This document shows positions 22,827 through 29,338 of a stretch of DNA of 64,000 bases, piece by piece. The notes under the pieces were generated by a model that was given only the letters and a program-made list of their open reading frames with translations, ran no database searches and was not told the origin of the DNA. The stretch is from an uncultured Verrucomicrobiota bacterium. Lineage in GTDB: Bacteria; Verrucomicrobiota; Verrucomicrobiia; Limisphaerales; UBA9464. How positions within the stretch are numbered: the first letter of the stretch is position 1; the number at the start of each line of letters is the position of its first letter. The DNA is taken from NCBI GenBank assembly GCA_903939515.1, contig CAJAHH010000010.1:124001-188000 (forward strand), in the 5' to 3' direction. Both the position numbers and the translations under genes were made by a program.

Positions 22827-22985
22827 AACGATGGGGCTTTGGACGGCTGAACTTGATACCGAATTTAACCCTGTTTGAGTTGAACTCAAGGTTTCCGAGC
22901 AGACGAAGTCGGAGTTTTCAAGTTTCCCTGAATTATCACGGCCCAAACTTTGGCGTCCGGCCCGGAATTCGTTAGACTGCACCCC

Positions 22986-24452
22986 ATGCGGAGCCGCTTG
23001 TTGCTACTAACCTGCCTGTGGGTGGGTTCGGCATTCCTCGGCCACACCGATCCGGCCACGCCCCCGGCGAATCCTCTTCCGGCTCCCCCGTCCAACACCT
23101 CGTCCAATACCGCCGCGTCCAATACCGCCCCAATTTCTTCGGCCGCCTCAGCGGTCCGGAAAGGGCTTCAGTGGAACGCCGCAACCGATCGCTACGCGGC
23201 ATCGATCCCCGGATGGCCTATCCAACGGGTTTTGGCACGTTTGAGCGGTCAAACCGGCTGGCGGGTTTGGATCGAAGATGGGATCGAAACCCAAATTCGG
23301 GCCCAGTTCCGAAACTTGCCCGCCCGAGAGGCGTTGCCGCGGATCCTCGGTGGATTGAATTATTCACTCACCACCTCCAGCAACGGTCGCCGGGAACTCA
23401 AGGTGTTCGCCACGCAAGCTCGGTCCAGCACCCTTGAAATCGTGGCCGATGAGGGCGATGGGATGATCGCCAACGAATTGATCGTCCGTTCCAAATCCGG
23501 TTCCCCCATCGATCTAAAATTCTTGGCTGGTCTGAATGGAGCCAGCCTGGTGGGAACCAACGGAGTGGCCGGGGCCTATCAAATCCGCTTTGATTCGGAG
23601 AAACTGGCCGAGGACGCCAAGCAGACGCTGGCCAATGAGTCCGAAGACCTCGCGGTCGAGAACAACCAACGGCTCGACTCCCCGGATGCGCCTGTCGCGG
23701 TCTCCGGAATAACCGCCCCGCCCTTGCGATTGACGGCCACGGTGCGACCCGATGGGAACCGGCGGGTGATCGCGCTTATCGACTCGGCACCGCAACCGCT
23801 GGCTCCGGCTTTCCAGTCCTTCCTGCTGCCCACCGTCGATCTCGTGCCGGGAGCCCCGGCCTCGGGTGGCCCTTCGCACGGCACTTCCATGGCGGAGGCG
23901 ATGGTTCGTGGCCTGAGCGCCGGATCGACTGAAACCAGCACCAGCACCCGCATCCAGCCGTACAATGTTTACGGTGCCAGCGAGTCGGCCTCGACGTGGG
24001 ACGTAGCCCGCGGAATCACACAAGCCGCCCAAGACGGTTCCACCATCATCAACCTGTCACTTGGCAGTGCCCAAGACAGCCCCTACCTCCGGGACGTCAT
24101 CCAGCAAGTCACTGGTCAGGGAGCGTTGGTCATTGCCGCAGCGGGCAACAATGGCACCGCCGATCCCTTCTACCCGGCCGCCTATGATGCAACGCTGGCG
24201 GTGACCGCCACGGGACGCTCCGGACAGCTGACGCCCTACGCCAACCGGGGCGGCTTCGTCGATCTGGGAGTACCCGGTTCGACCGTAGTTCAGATGGATG
24301 GGCAGTCGTGGGTGGTTCAGGGCACGTCGGTCTCGGCCGCCTACGCCTCAGGCATGGCTGGAGCCTTGGCTCAAAACCCACAGACGTCGCTGGCTCCGGT
24401 CCGCTCCAAGCTCATCGAAACCTTCCCCATCCAGCGGGCCAAGGGCCCCTGA
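22986..24452 (+). CDS. S8 subtilisin-like serine protease, secreted
   Basis: signal peptide; GGPSHGTSMAEAM (His), VIAAAGNNG, GTSVSAAYASGMAGAL (Ser). Confidence 0.88.
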   Translation: MRSRLLLLTCLWVGSAFLGHTDPATPPANPLPAPPSNTSSNTAASNTAPISSAASAVRKGLQWNAATDRYAASIPGWPIQRVLARLSGQTGWRVWIEDGIETQIRAQFRNLPAREALPRILGGLNYSLTTSSNGRRELKVFATQARSSTLEIVADEGDGMIANELIVRSKSGSPIDLKFLAGLNGASLVGTNGVAGAYQIRFDSEKLAEDAKQTLANESEDLAVENNQRLDSPDAPVAVSGITAPPLRLTATVRPDGNRRVIALIDSAPQPLAPAFQSFLLPTVDLVPGAPASGGPSHGTSMAEAMVRGLSAGSTETSTSTRIQPYNVYGASESASTWDVARGITQAAQDGSTIINLSLGSAQDSPYLRDVIQQVTGQGALVIAAAGNNGTADPFYPAAYDATLAVTATGRSGQLTPYANRGGFVDLGVPGSTVVQMDGQSWVVQGTSVSAAYASGMAGALAQNPQTSLAPVRSKLIETFPIQRAKGP

Positions 24453-25015: not shown

Positions 25016-26194
25016 TTAGGGCAACGGCCGCACTCGATAAACCCGGCCTGAGTCGACGATCGGATCGAAGAGCACGGTTCCTCCGGCCTGACTCATCATT
25101 TCAGCCTGGGTTGCAAAAGGACCCGGCATGGCCGCCGCCGACTCAATCGCATAGCGACGACCGGTCAGCCCGTTGAAGGAAAGCCTCAGGGAGTCCGAGA
25201 CGAGAGTGGGTTGGTCCCACACCACCGGACCGGCCACAGACAGCGTCGCGCCGTCGCTGTCCACGAATCCACCCAGGTTGGTAATCCGCACCCGGTACAC
25301 CCCGGCCGCAGTCGCGGTGACATTCGTCACGACCAACGTCGGTCCCGGGGGGCCAGCGCTCCCGACCACCACGCCATCCCGCGTCCAAGAATAGGTCAGG
25401 TTGGTGCCTGTTGCAGAAACACCCAACGAGAACCCTTCGCCAGCATGCAGCGCCCGACCCACGGGCTGGGTCGTGATCACCGGCTTGGCAACCGCGGCCT
25501 GCACGGTGAGGGTCGCCCAGTCGCTGAAGACGGTCGCCAAATCGTTGATCAACCTGAGGCGATATCGGCCGGAGTCCGCCACTTGGGCGCTGGGCAAGGT
25601 AAGAGTCGCGTTGGTGGCATTCTTAACCTCGAGGTCCTCCTTGAACCACCGCAGCGCCACGGGTTGATCCCCTGAATAGGCAACCGTCAGACTCGCCGAT
25701 TGGCCCTGGGCCACGTTGAGGTTGGCAGGCTGGGATGTGACCGCGGGCGGATTGGCACCGACCACTGTGAGCGCCACGTTGAGATCAGCCCAATTGCCCC
25801 CCAAGCTGGTGGTCTCCCAACCACGGATCCTCAGGGTGAACGGCCCACTAGCGGTGGGGGTTCCCGTGAGCGTTCCACGCGTGGAGAGGGTTGTGCCCGG
25901 CGGCAATCCAGAGACGGCCGAATAGGATCTGGCCGTGCCATGGGAAGAACTGGTGATCGAAAATGTCACCGACGTGCGAACGCCGTTGGTGGCCCGAACG
26001 GCCGCAGGCACTACGCCGGTGGCCCCCGACAGCCCATGCATGCTGCCCGCCACGGCCGCTGCACCAAAGACCCATCGGAGGATGAACAGCGTCGGAGCCG
26101 CCATCACCCCGGGCGCAGACTGCGCCACACGCAGCAGGGGAGCCAATTGAAGGAAAGCGGCCAACACATGGGGATGAATTAAGATCCGTTTCAT
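25016..26194 (-). CDS. secreted protein with Ig-like domains
   Basis: PAVTSQPANLNVAQGQSASLTVAYSGDQPVALRWFKED and PVITTQPVGRALHAGEGFSLGVSATGTNLTYSWTRDG; ends GRVYRVRPLP. Confidence 0.8.
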   Translation of the reverse strand: MKRILIHPHVLAAFLQLAPLLRVAQSAPGVMAAPTLFILRWVFGAAAVAGSMHGLSGATGVVPAAVRATNGVRTSVTFSITSSSHGTARSYSAVSGLPPGTTLSTRGTLTGTPTASGPFTLRIRGWETTSLGGNWADLNVALTVVGANPPAVTSQPANLNVAQGQSASLTVAYSGDQPVALRWFKEDLEVKNATNATLTLPSAQVADSGRYRLRLINDLATVFSDWATLTVQAAVAKPVITTQPVGRALHAGEGFSLGVSATGTNLTYSWTRDGVVVGSAGPPGPTLVVTNVTATAAGVYRVRITNLGGFVDSDGATLSVAGPVVWDQPTLVSDSLRLSFNGLTGRRYAIESAAAMPGPFATQAEMMSQAGGTVLFDPIVDSGRVYRVRPLP

Positions 26195-26249
26195 AGAGAC
26201 CAAGCCAAGAATATGAGCACTTCCGGACCGCGCAAACGCTGGCTAGAAA

Positions 26250-26513
26250 TTAGTTGCAACCGCAACCGCCCCCGCCCACTCCGCGTCCGCCGGCCGCTGC
26301 CTCACGGCTAAACCACATGTGTTCGGCCAGTAACAACCCTGCCGGATCCCGATCTCCGCGCATCGTTGCATCCGACAGCGTGCGACGCTGCCATGGCTCA
26401 ACGGTAGAACAACCCGTGCCCAAGGCGATAATGACCGCAACGGCCGCCAACACCATCCCACCCGGACGGGAGGAACAGGCTGGTTGAAGGGGGAGTAGAT
26501 TTTTGACGCTCAT
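26250..26513 (-). CDS. DUF4266 small lipoprotein-like protein, C-terminal GGGGCGCN
   Basis: ALGTGCSTVEPWQRRTLSDATM...LLLAEHMWFSREAAAGGRGVGGGGCGCN. Confidence 0.85.
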   Translation of the reverse strand: MSVKNLLPLQPACSSRPGGMVLAAVAVIIALGTGCSTVEPWQRRTLSDATMRGDRDPAGLLLAEHMWFSREAAAGGRGVGGGGCGCN

Positions 26514-26533
26514 ATCTATTCTATCGATAAAGT

Positions 26534-27073
26534 TTAGGCTTTAACCGTTTTTAGGAGGCGTTCGATGATTTCAACGTACTTCTTGCGGGTAGCTTCCCCT
26601 TCGTACTTGGGATGCACCGAATCGAGACGCCCCTCCGGTCCGAAGAAGTAGGAGGTCGGCATCCCGGGAGGGCGAACCTTGGAGGCCAGCTTTTCCTGGG
26701 CATCGCGCACGGTCGCAAAACTCACCGAGTTCTTCTTGAGGAAGCGATCCATGTCCGGTTGCCGCTCGTCCATGGAAACGCCGATGAGCACATATCCCCT
26801 CGACCCATAGGTTTTGTGGAGGTTTTCCAACACGGGGAAGGACTGACGACAGGGCACACACCATGAGGCCCAGAAATCGAGGTGAACCACCTTGCCGGAA
26901 AGGTCTGGCACGGTGCCTTCGAGCTGCAGGCTCTTGAGGTCCGGAAGGGTGTCACCGGGCTGAAGCCCTGCCGCCCAGCCCAGCGGAATCGTGGCCATCA
27001 GCGCCATCCCGGCGGCCGAAGTTCGCAGGAATTGGCGGCGTGGCAGGGAGATTTCAAGAGGCGACATGTTCAT
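26534..27073 (-). CDS. TlpA-family thiol-disulfide oxidoreductase
   Basis: DFWASWCVPCRQSFPVLENLHKTYGSRGYVLIGVSMDE; MNMSPLEISLPRRQFLRTSAAGMALMATIPLGWA export signal. Confidence 0.92.
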   Translation of the reverse strand: MNMSPLEISLPRRQFLRTSAAGMALMATIPLGWAAGLQPGDTLPDLKSLQLEGTVPDLSGKVVHLDFWASWCVPCRQSFPVLENLHKTYGSRGYVLIGVSMDERQPDMDRFLKKNSVSFATVRDAQEKLASKVRPPGMPTSYFFGPEGRLDSVHPKYEGEATRKKYVEIIERLLKTVKA

Positions 27074-28082
27074 AAAATCGGCGACTGCTGAGTTTGGATT
27101 GAGGTCCGTGGAGAAGTCCCTCGGCCCCCGGTTGAGATTCGATGAGACGGAGACCTTCGTCGGGCCCCAGCACGAGGGCCGCGGTGCTGAGCATGCCCGC
27201 CAGGGTGCAACTTGGGGCCAGCACGTGCACAGCCCGGCACCCGTTTTGGACTGGACGCCCTGTGCGCGGGTCGAGGATGTGTCCCCAGCGCTTGCCTGCT
27301 GCATTGAAGCCCCGATGGTAATCCCCCGAGGTGGCCACGGCCGCATCCCGGACAGCCAGACCACACCAAGCCTTTCCCGGCTGATCGGGGTCTTCGAGCC
27401 CGAGGTGCCAACCCGGGCGACCATCGGCTGGCAACCCCATCACCCGGATGTCGGCTCCGAAGTCCACCAAGGCCCCGGTCAGTCCGCACTGACGCGCCAA
27501 AAGGGCTACCTGATCCACCGCGTACTCCTTGCCCATGCCACCCAGATCCAAGCACATCCCTGGGTCACTCAATCTCACCGAACCCGGCTTGCGCTCCACC
27601 TTTCGCCAACCGACACACTGGCGAGCGGCTTCGATCTGTGGGTCGGTGGGAATTTGTGCCCGACGCCAATCCCACAATTGAATGAGAGGCAACGCGGTGG
27701 GATCAAACACACCGCGGGTCAAAAAATGCATCTCGTGGCACAGCGCCAAAATCCGGTCGATCTCCGGATCGGAAGCCACCGCGGCACCGCCGGCTGATGC
27801 GTTGAGAACAGAGATCCAACTATCGGTCAGGAATCGGGAATACTTGGCCTCAAAGGCCGCCAACCATCCCAATGCCTCGCCATCGAAACGGCGGATCGCC
27901 TCCGGCGAACCCACCGTAACCCACCGACACGTGGTACCGAGAGCCATGAAGTGCAATTCCCGACCGCCATCGGTTGGCGACTCCTGACACGACTCCCGAA
28001 TCCGGCGAAGGACCGCCGAAGCATTCCCCCGGACCACGGTCGCAGGCGCCGGTTCGCTGGATTGGACAGGGGCGCTCACCAT
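27054..28082 (-). CDS. apbE: FAD:protein FMN transferase (ApbE family)
   Basis: DLGGMGKEYAVDQVALLARQCGLTGALVDFGADIRVMG; AAVATSGDYHRGF; HILDPRTGRPVQNG. Confidence 0.93.
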   Translation of the reverse strand: MVSAPVQSSEPAPATVVRGNASAVLRRIRESCQESPTDGGRELHFMALGTTCRWVTVGSPEAIRRFDGEALGWLAAFEAKYSRFLTDSWISVLNASAGGAAVASDPEIDRILALCHEMHFLTRGVFDPTALPLIQLWDWRRAQIPTDPQIEAARQCVGWRKVERKPGSVRLSDPGMCLDLGGMGKEYAVDQVALLARQCGLTGALVDFGADIRVMGLPADGRPGWHLGLEDPDQPGKAWCGLAVRDAAVATSGDYHRGFNAAGKRWGHILDPRTGRPVQNGCRAVHVLAPSCTLAGMLSTAALVLGPDEGLRLIESQPGAEGLLHGPQSKLSSRRFYEHVAS

Positions 28083-29338
28083 TGGAAACCAATACCCATC
28101 GTGAAGACATTTGCCTGGGGGTAAGCCGACGACAAGGTCACGCCATCGAGGCCTTGCATGAGGTAGCGCTTGTAGGCCAGGTCCACAGAAACATGCTCAT
28201 GCACTTGCCAGTGAATGCCAACTCCCAGCGTCCACGTCTCGAGGTGGCTCAGGCGGTAATCCGCCGAATAATACTGGGGCCACGCGGGCACTGACAAAAC
28301 ACGCCCATCCCCGGGGAACCCGGGCTCCCCATCAAAAATCAGACTTCCATCGGACTGCAGGGCCGCGTTCACGCCGTTGGGATCCACCAACGTCCCGTTG
28401 AACACAGGCGCGTAGAAGTCGGCCGCTGACTGGACGTGGTAGCGCAGCATTGGGGAGATCACGAGTTTCTCTCCGACCTTCTGGTTCCACTGGACTGCCG
28501 CGGTGTTGGCCCAAATGCCCCAGTCGTCGTGGTGGAGGCGGTAGTTGGCGTCGACGCTGCCATTGAGCGCGCTCACGAAGTGGGTGATCCCGAGATACCC
28601 CACCTGCTTAATGCGTTGATTCGGGCGATTCTCACCGACTGATGCCGAGGGATCCGAGTTGTAGCCCTCGACCGGAAAGTCGTACTGGAAGTGAACCCCC
28701 TTGTACGGGTCCGTTAGATAGCCATCAGCCACGCCCACGGTCAAATTGGCCGTCAAGTACGTGTTGGGTCCCAGCAACTGGGTCACCCCCAAGAGACCGT
28801 CCCAAGTGTCCTTGTCTTTCCACAGCGTCTTATTGGCCAACCAGAAGCCGGTGACCTGGTCGAAATTGCGCGACAAACCCAGATTCAAAATCGTGTTCTT
28901 CTGGTTGAACTCGATGCTCTCATTCAGGGAAAGACCGATAGAGCGGTAATCACTCTCTTCGCTGTACGAAAGTTGGGGGCGCGTGATGAAGCGACCGGCG
29001 GTGAGGTCGAGTTCAACGGAGCCAGCACGACGGATGTCCTGGAAGTTCTGAAGCGGCAAACGATCGGTTCCTGGCGCGGCGGCCGCCCCGGTCGGGGTCG
29101 CTCCCGAGATGCCATCGTAAACGAAGTTTGCTTTTACCACCGCCTTGGCGTTCAAGGCCTGTTCGGCATAAACCGCGTGGGTCCGGATGTGGATCCGATC
29201 GTTGTCCTCGATATAGTCCTCGTAGCGGTAATCCACCCGGTTCTCAGCACGAGCACGGACCAAGGAAACGCAGTGCAGCAATAAGGCAGTCAGGACGGGG
29301 CTGATTCGGGCCATCAGGCACCGGGACCACGGAGGCAT
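28076..29338 (-). CDS. DUF3570 outer-membrane beta-barrel-like protein with ApbE-type flavinylation motif
   Basis: start MPPWSRCLMARISPVLTALLLHCVSLVRARA signal; ENRVDYRYEDYIEDNDRIHIRTHAVYAEQALN; DGISGATPTG; C-terminal MGIGFQW; overlaps apbE by 7 nt. Confidence 0.85.
   Translation of the reverse strand: MPPWSRCLMARISPVLTALLLHCVSLVRARAENRVDYRYEDYIEDNDRIHIRTHAVYAEQALNAKAVVKANFVYDGISGATPTGAAAAPGTDRLPLQNFQDIRRAGSVELDLTAGRFITRPQLSYSEESDYRSIGLSLNESIEFNQKNTILNLGLSRNFDQVTGFWLANKTLWKDKDTWDGLLGVTQLLGPNTYLTANLTVGVADGYLTDPYKGVHFQYDFPVEGYNSDPSASVGENRPNQRIKQVGYLGITHFVSALNGSVDANYRLHHDDWGIWANTAAVQWNQKVGEKLVISPMLRYHVQSAADFYAPVFNGTLVDPNGVNAALQSDGSLIFDGEPGFPGDGRVLSVPAWPQYYSADYRLSHLETWTLGVGIHWQVHEHVSVDLAYKRYLMQGLDGVTLSSAYPQANVFTMGIGFQW

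Follow-up and report, generated by a model that had tools for sequence, protein, structure and literature searches.

The window, i.e., the whole stretch of 64,000 nucleotides that was analyzed, contains a four-gene operon that is a Verrucomicrobiota member of the already published DUF3570/ApbE/TlpA/DUF4266 flavinylation system, and the system itself is not new. New in relation to it, as far as the available portions of the literature go, are features of the ApbE and the topology of the barrel: judged from sequence, the ApbE lacks the signal peptide that would match its three exported partners, its active site is changed, and the FMN-accepting threonine of DUF3570 is predicted to be at the extracellular end of an outer-membrane barrel. 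These observations pose two questions, namely in which compartment FMN is attached and whether the flavin faces the outside. If attachment before export and an outward-facing flavin were both true, this would represent a way for electrons to cross the outer membrane without haem, as well as a cofactor that is installed before the export of an outer-membrane protein.

The operon, its published relatives and its conservation

The four genes are located on the minus strand (29338-26250) in the order DUF3570, apbE, TlpA-like gene and DUF4266 gene (Table 1). DUF3570 and apbE share seven nucleotides (ATGGTGA, 28076-28082), the thioredoxin gene overlaps the end of apbE by 20 nt (start at 27073) or 14 nt (start at 27067), and its distance to the DUF4266 gene is 20 nt. 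The initial annotation had given the same order, overlaps and gap, all of which were confirmed. A start of the TlpA open reading frame at 27424 was rejected as over-extended, and the leader begins at the likely ATG at 27073 (or 27067). For DUF3570, 29338 is a sensible start, from which a signal peptide at about residues 1-31 is followed by 389 aa of mature protein. The flanking genes are unrelated, with an Ig-domain protein encoded on the downstream side and a TcdA-like ThiF protein on the upstream side. The former is a repeat protein located next to the operon (25016-26203, minus strand), and an open reading frame farther along (22950-24452, plus strand) appears subtilisin-like by eye.

Table 1. 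Features of the operon (positions in the window)
Feature	Position	Strand	Support
DUF3570 protein, predicted outer-membrane 16-strand beta-barrel and FMN-accepting substrate, 420 aa	28076..29338	-	Pfam PF12094, E=2.1e-65; AlphaFold2 pLDDT 94.4
ACC codon for the predicted FMN acceptor in SGAT, precursor Thr81 (Thr50 of the mature DUF3570 protein)	29096..29098	-	Thr or Ser at this position in nearly all DUF3570 proteins aligned
FAD:protein FMN transferase of the ApbE family, 342 aa, no signal peptide	27054..28082	-	Pfam PF02424, E=3.3e-67
ApbE Glu186 (GKE replacing AKG), clade-specific	27525..27527	-	
ApbE Gly296, at the position of Asp301 of Listeria FmnB, the catalytic Asp that binds the metal	27195..27197	-	
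TlpA/ResA-like thioredoxin with TAT-like leader and active site WASWCVPC	26534..27073	-	Pfam PF13905/PF00578, E=3.6e-15/2.6e-14
DUF4266 lipoprotein, lipobox Cys35, ends in GGGGCGCN (CXC tail)	26250..26513	-	Pfam PF14086, E=7.1e-18

A full-text search of the literature for DUF3570 or DUF4266 led to a single paper, the survey of Meheust et al. 2021 (PMC8238504), so that the initial suspicion that surveys of ApbE-linked loci already list the system was borne out. There, the combination of ApbE, DUF3570, a thioredoxin-like protein and DUF4266 was described under the name "DsbD systems", together with 316 further clusters of the same gene set without DsbD, and the function of the DUF3570 system was called uncertain (PMC8238504). 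The DUF3570 protein of Chlorobium luteolum was flavinylated by ApbE at two [S/T]GA[S/T] sites, and in the available text it is the only one for which covalent FMN was shown (PMC8238504). The present operon is like the DsbD-type system in its gene set, its acceptor motif and the CXC tail of DUF4266, which had already been remarked upon in the survey (PMC8238504). It differs in that the DUF3570 protein has one intact motif instead of the two reported there, and in that the available portions of that paper, the first screen of which discarded ApbE genes without signal peptide, describe neither a leaderless ApbE lacking the Asp nor the barrel topology (PMC8238504). Also in the rest of the literature examined, as far as it was available, no report of a leaderless cluster ApbE, of the active-site change described below or of a barrel topology with acceptor site was found.

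The four-gene arrangement is conserved far beyond chance. Among 241 Verrucomicrobiota genomes DUF3570 was detected in 26 and DUF4266 in 25, all of which belong to the 26, and the two genes were clustered in each of the 25; the lone exception was one partial DUF3570 match. Two of the 25 genomes contain two clusters apiece (L039/L040 and L041; genomes G170 and G182), and these are complete copies about 10-13 kb apart. The 27 Verrucomicrobiota clusters that were fully read encode an ApbE in all cases and a thioredoxin in 25. When this set was combined with a scan of named genomes, DUF3570, ApbE and DUF4266 were found together at 93 loci, 88 of which also encode a thioredoxin. The scan was keyed on the DUF4266 tail, and an 18-row alignment of DUF3570 offered no conserved stretch; the neighbor counts cover the four core genes and DsbD. 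The comparison of gene neighborhoods proposed in the initial annotation thus revealed conserved clustering. In Pseudomonadota, 26 of 349 genomes contain DUF3570, and the usual order is thioredoxin, DUF4266, DUF3570, ApbE. About ten relatives have a DsbD gene adjoining the cluster or in its vicinity; in the genome of the window it is on the same contig at a distance of 63 kb from the operon, i.e., it is not co-localized. Searches of plasmids yielded only remote matches in Vibrio, on records without usable annotation.

Several clusters deviate from the common pattern. On one contig (WLWN01000001; L049 and L066) DUF3570 reads as if split into several pieces, with one in-frame TAG, while the remaining cluster is intact. 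Seven clusters of Pseudomonadota (L197, L201-L206) have no adjacent ApbE gene. A loss of the acceptor motif in these clusters was ruled out, because the motif is retained there. In the two of them that were examined with Pfam (L204 and L197), the downstream genes include TPR proteins. Four genomes whose clusters have no adjacent ApbE were searched further, and in two of them an ApbE with an apparent leader is encoded about 12 kb from DUF3570.

ApbE without export signal and with a changed active site

Leaders were called by hydropathy, not with SignalP. The ApbE of the window has neither a lipobox nor a hydrophobic leader, even when the frame is extended to the upstream stop, and the upstream frames were also inspected for the 27 Verrucomicrobiota clusters. 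The 111 cluster ApbEs of Verrucomicrobiota and Pseudomonadota that share the active-site change had a median hydrophobicity peak before the core of 0.63; only three reach at least 1.8, none of them with a convincing leader. An N-terminal peak of at least 1.8 was seen in 89% of the thioredoxins, 98% of the DUF4266 proteins and 89% of the DUF3570 proteins, i.e., in the exported partners. As read from the sequences, the absence of a signal peptide thus holds across all 111 cluster ApbEs. A cytoplasmic ApbE without signal peptide is also known from Klebsiella, but its substrate, a soluble fumarate reductase, is cytoplasmic as well (PMC12052999), whereas the present substrate is an exported outer-membrane protein. 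That flavinylation is possible in a cytoplasm follows from the published test in E. coli, for which signal-peptide-truncated constructs were used (PMC8238504). The ApbEs of three divergent Verrucomicrobiota clusters (L059-L061) have leaders and the sequence AKG together with the Asp, and, therefore, modification before export is not required by the substrate.

In all 111 cluster ApbEs the catalytic metal-binding Asp is replaced by Gly, and Glu has taken the place of Gly directly after the active-site Lys; this pair is abbreviated KE/G below. The equivalents of the catalytic-triad Ser and His as well as the Lys are invariant, and the metal-binding Thr is nearly so. The Asp that matches Gly296 of the window ApbE in an alignment with the T. 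pallidum ApbE corresponds to the Mg2+-binding Asp301 of Listeria FmnB, and alanine at such metal residues of FmnB greatly reduced or abolished activity (PMC8906456). The loss of the Asp could, therefore, result in a weak or altered activity. Compared with the structurally solved ApbEs of T. pallidum, E. coli and Listeria (FmnB), the cluster ApbE belongs to the same fold family and has the invariant Ser and His and the FAD-type motifs, but it differs in the missing leader, in the Gly at the metal position and in the Glu after the active-site Lys.

For comparison, 26 other ApbEs were used, 24 from 18 searched cluster-bearing genomes and two from the genome of the window itself. None of them has the KE/G pair, and 24 have kept the Asp. 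Some are also leaderless, but of another type, and thus the KE/G pair is unique while the absence of a leader is not. In a phylogenetic tree all sampled KE/G ApbEs grouped in a single clade (SH-aLRT 96), in which the Verrucomicrobiota sequences were on one side and the Pseudomonadota sequences on the other.

The predicted DUF3570 barrel and the thiol partners

The mature DUF3570 protein was modeled with AlphaFold2 (47 sequences; pLDDT 94.4, pTM 0.88), and 16 main strands were counted from the strand list. On the side of both termini the turns comprise 3-5 residues, and the opposite loops have up to about 60. As a general rule, the long-loop side is extracellular in barrels with a C-terminal beta-signal, which is Trp in the window protein; the last residue is W, F or Y in 79 of 90 homologues. 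With a signal peptide, a closed even-stranded barrel in the model and a C-terminal aromatic residue, the protein is predicted to be an outer-membrane barrel. The best matches of a fold search in the PDB were also outer-membrane barrels, with low TM-scores and none of them close.

The single intact acceptor motif, SGAT, comprises residues 78-81 of the precursor, and a second motif, TGAA, is degenerate. In the model strand 3 carries SGAT (mature residues 47-50) at its top, on the side of the long loops, and the parity of Thr50 is lumen-facing. The motif is conserved also in clusters of different gene order. The extracellular half holds 24 of the 33 conserved strand residues (p=0.007), which are mostly lumen-facing. 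The FMN-acceptor Thr is thus predicted to be at the extracellular end, to face the lumen and to be among the most conserved residues. A homologue from Burkholderiaceae had the same predicted topology at lower confidence (pLDDT 78.8), with both of its motifs in the same loop. Several DUF3570 proteins (L042, L037, L048, L050 and relatives) have an insertion of about 100 residues rich in Pro, Ser and Thr straight after the motif, a position that would suit an outer loop. The SGAT motif and the flavinylated homologue of C. luteolum (PMC8238504) support the initial view of the barrel as carrier of FMN.

The leader of the window thioredoxin is TAT-like (RRQFLR), with a score below the curated cut-offs; most relatives have a hydrophobic Sec-type leader instead. 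The tail of DUF4266 is CGCN in 90 of 94 relatives. The TlpA-like protein and DUF4266 probably feed electrons to the flavin of the barrel. The initial annotation had assigned the whole module to the extracytoplasmic space. The TlpA-like protein and the Cys-tailed lipoprotein stand as redox partners, but the ApbE had to be taken out, because the window ApbE and its whole clade have no export signal. A metallation of the lipoprotein, also suggested there, may or may not occur.

Possible mechanism and alternatives

The following reading has, in our estimate, an even chance of being correct. The leaderless ApbE would transfer FMN from FAD in the cytoplasm to Thr81 of the precursor made from the overlapping upstream DUF3570 gene, and this precursor would then be exported by Sec and folded by BAM. 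In the predicted 16-strand barrel the FMN would be placed in the lumen, at the end that faces the outside. From what is generally known of conjugated preproteins, an FMN-bearing chain could plausibly pass through the Sec channel. Electrons would flow from DsbD to the TlpA-like protein and on to the CXC tail of DUF4266, which would reach into the barrel, and from there to the FMN and across the outer membrane to an acceptor at the cell surface, for which Fe(III) is the leading guess. The electron path and the outside acceptor are suggested by guilt by association.

An alternative is that the ApbE does leave the cytoplasm, non-classically or piggy-back, and that the barrel receives its FMN in the periplasm, like in the extracytoplasmic systems described so far. 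Secretion is usual among ApbEs, and those known to have exported targets are themselves exported, as far as the available text goes (PMC12052999); in addition, leaders are present in the ApbEs of the divergent DUF3570 clusters and near some of the TPR-type clusters, and the TAT-like leader of the window's TlpA could point to such a route. However, 111 orthologues from two phyla have no convincing leader while their partners in the same operons have ordinary ones, and the mostly Sec-type leaders of the related thioredoxins imply that TAT hitch-hiking cannot be general, and we regard the export of the ApbE as unlikely. Even less probable is that the KE/G ApbE is a changed enzyme or a chaperone-like binder and not the FMN transferase for the barrel. 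The replacement of the Asp in all 111 would fit this, but the other catalytic residues are retained, the new Glu strictly accompanies the loss of the Asp, as expected for a rebuilt metal site, and the linkage to a barrel with acceptor motif is constant. Furthermore, a DUF3570 protein was flavinylated by its cognate ApbE (PMC8238504), which may be of the KE/G type or may have Gly and Asp at the two positions (KG/D).

The barrel and its FMN could also act within the envelope, e.g., in periplasmic redox balance or iron assimilation, without electron flow to the outside. DsbD and TlpA are donors on the periplasmic side, and VIT1 iron transporters were reported for 25 clusters by Meheust et al. (PMC8238504), but in the predicted barrel the acceptor and the conserved residues are found at the extracellular end, and this explanation appears improbable to a similar degree as an exported ApbE. 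A further-reaching proposal combines the features of the ApbE with the barrel topology: a distinct cytoplasmic ApbE clade, its metal site rebuilt through exchanges of Asp for Gly and of Gly for Glu, would flavinylate the barrel before export, the FMN would traverse Sec to the extracellular mouth, and the CXC lipoprotein and the thioredoxin would feed it with electrons, resulting in a thiol-flavin wire that spans the outer membrane without haem. It is tentative, and we hold it to be possible but short of an even chance. In porin-cytochrome conduits of the MtrCAB type a barrel carries electrons across the outer membrane via haem. Both barrels would have this task in common, by analogy and not by homology, but in the present system flavin and thiols in a single 16-strand barrel would replace the haem.
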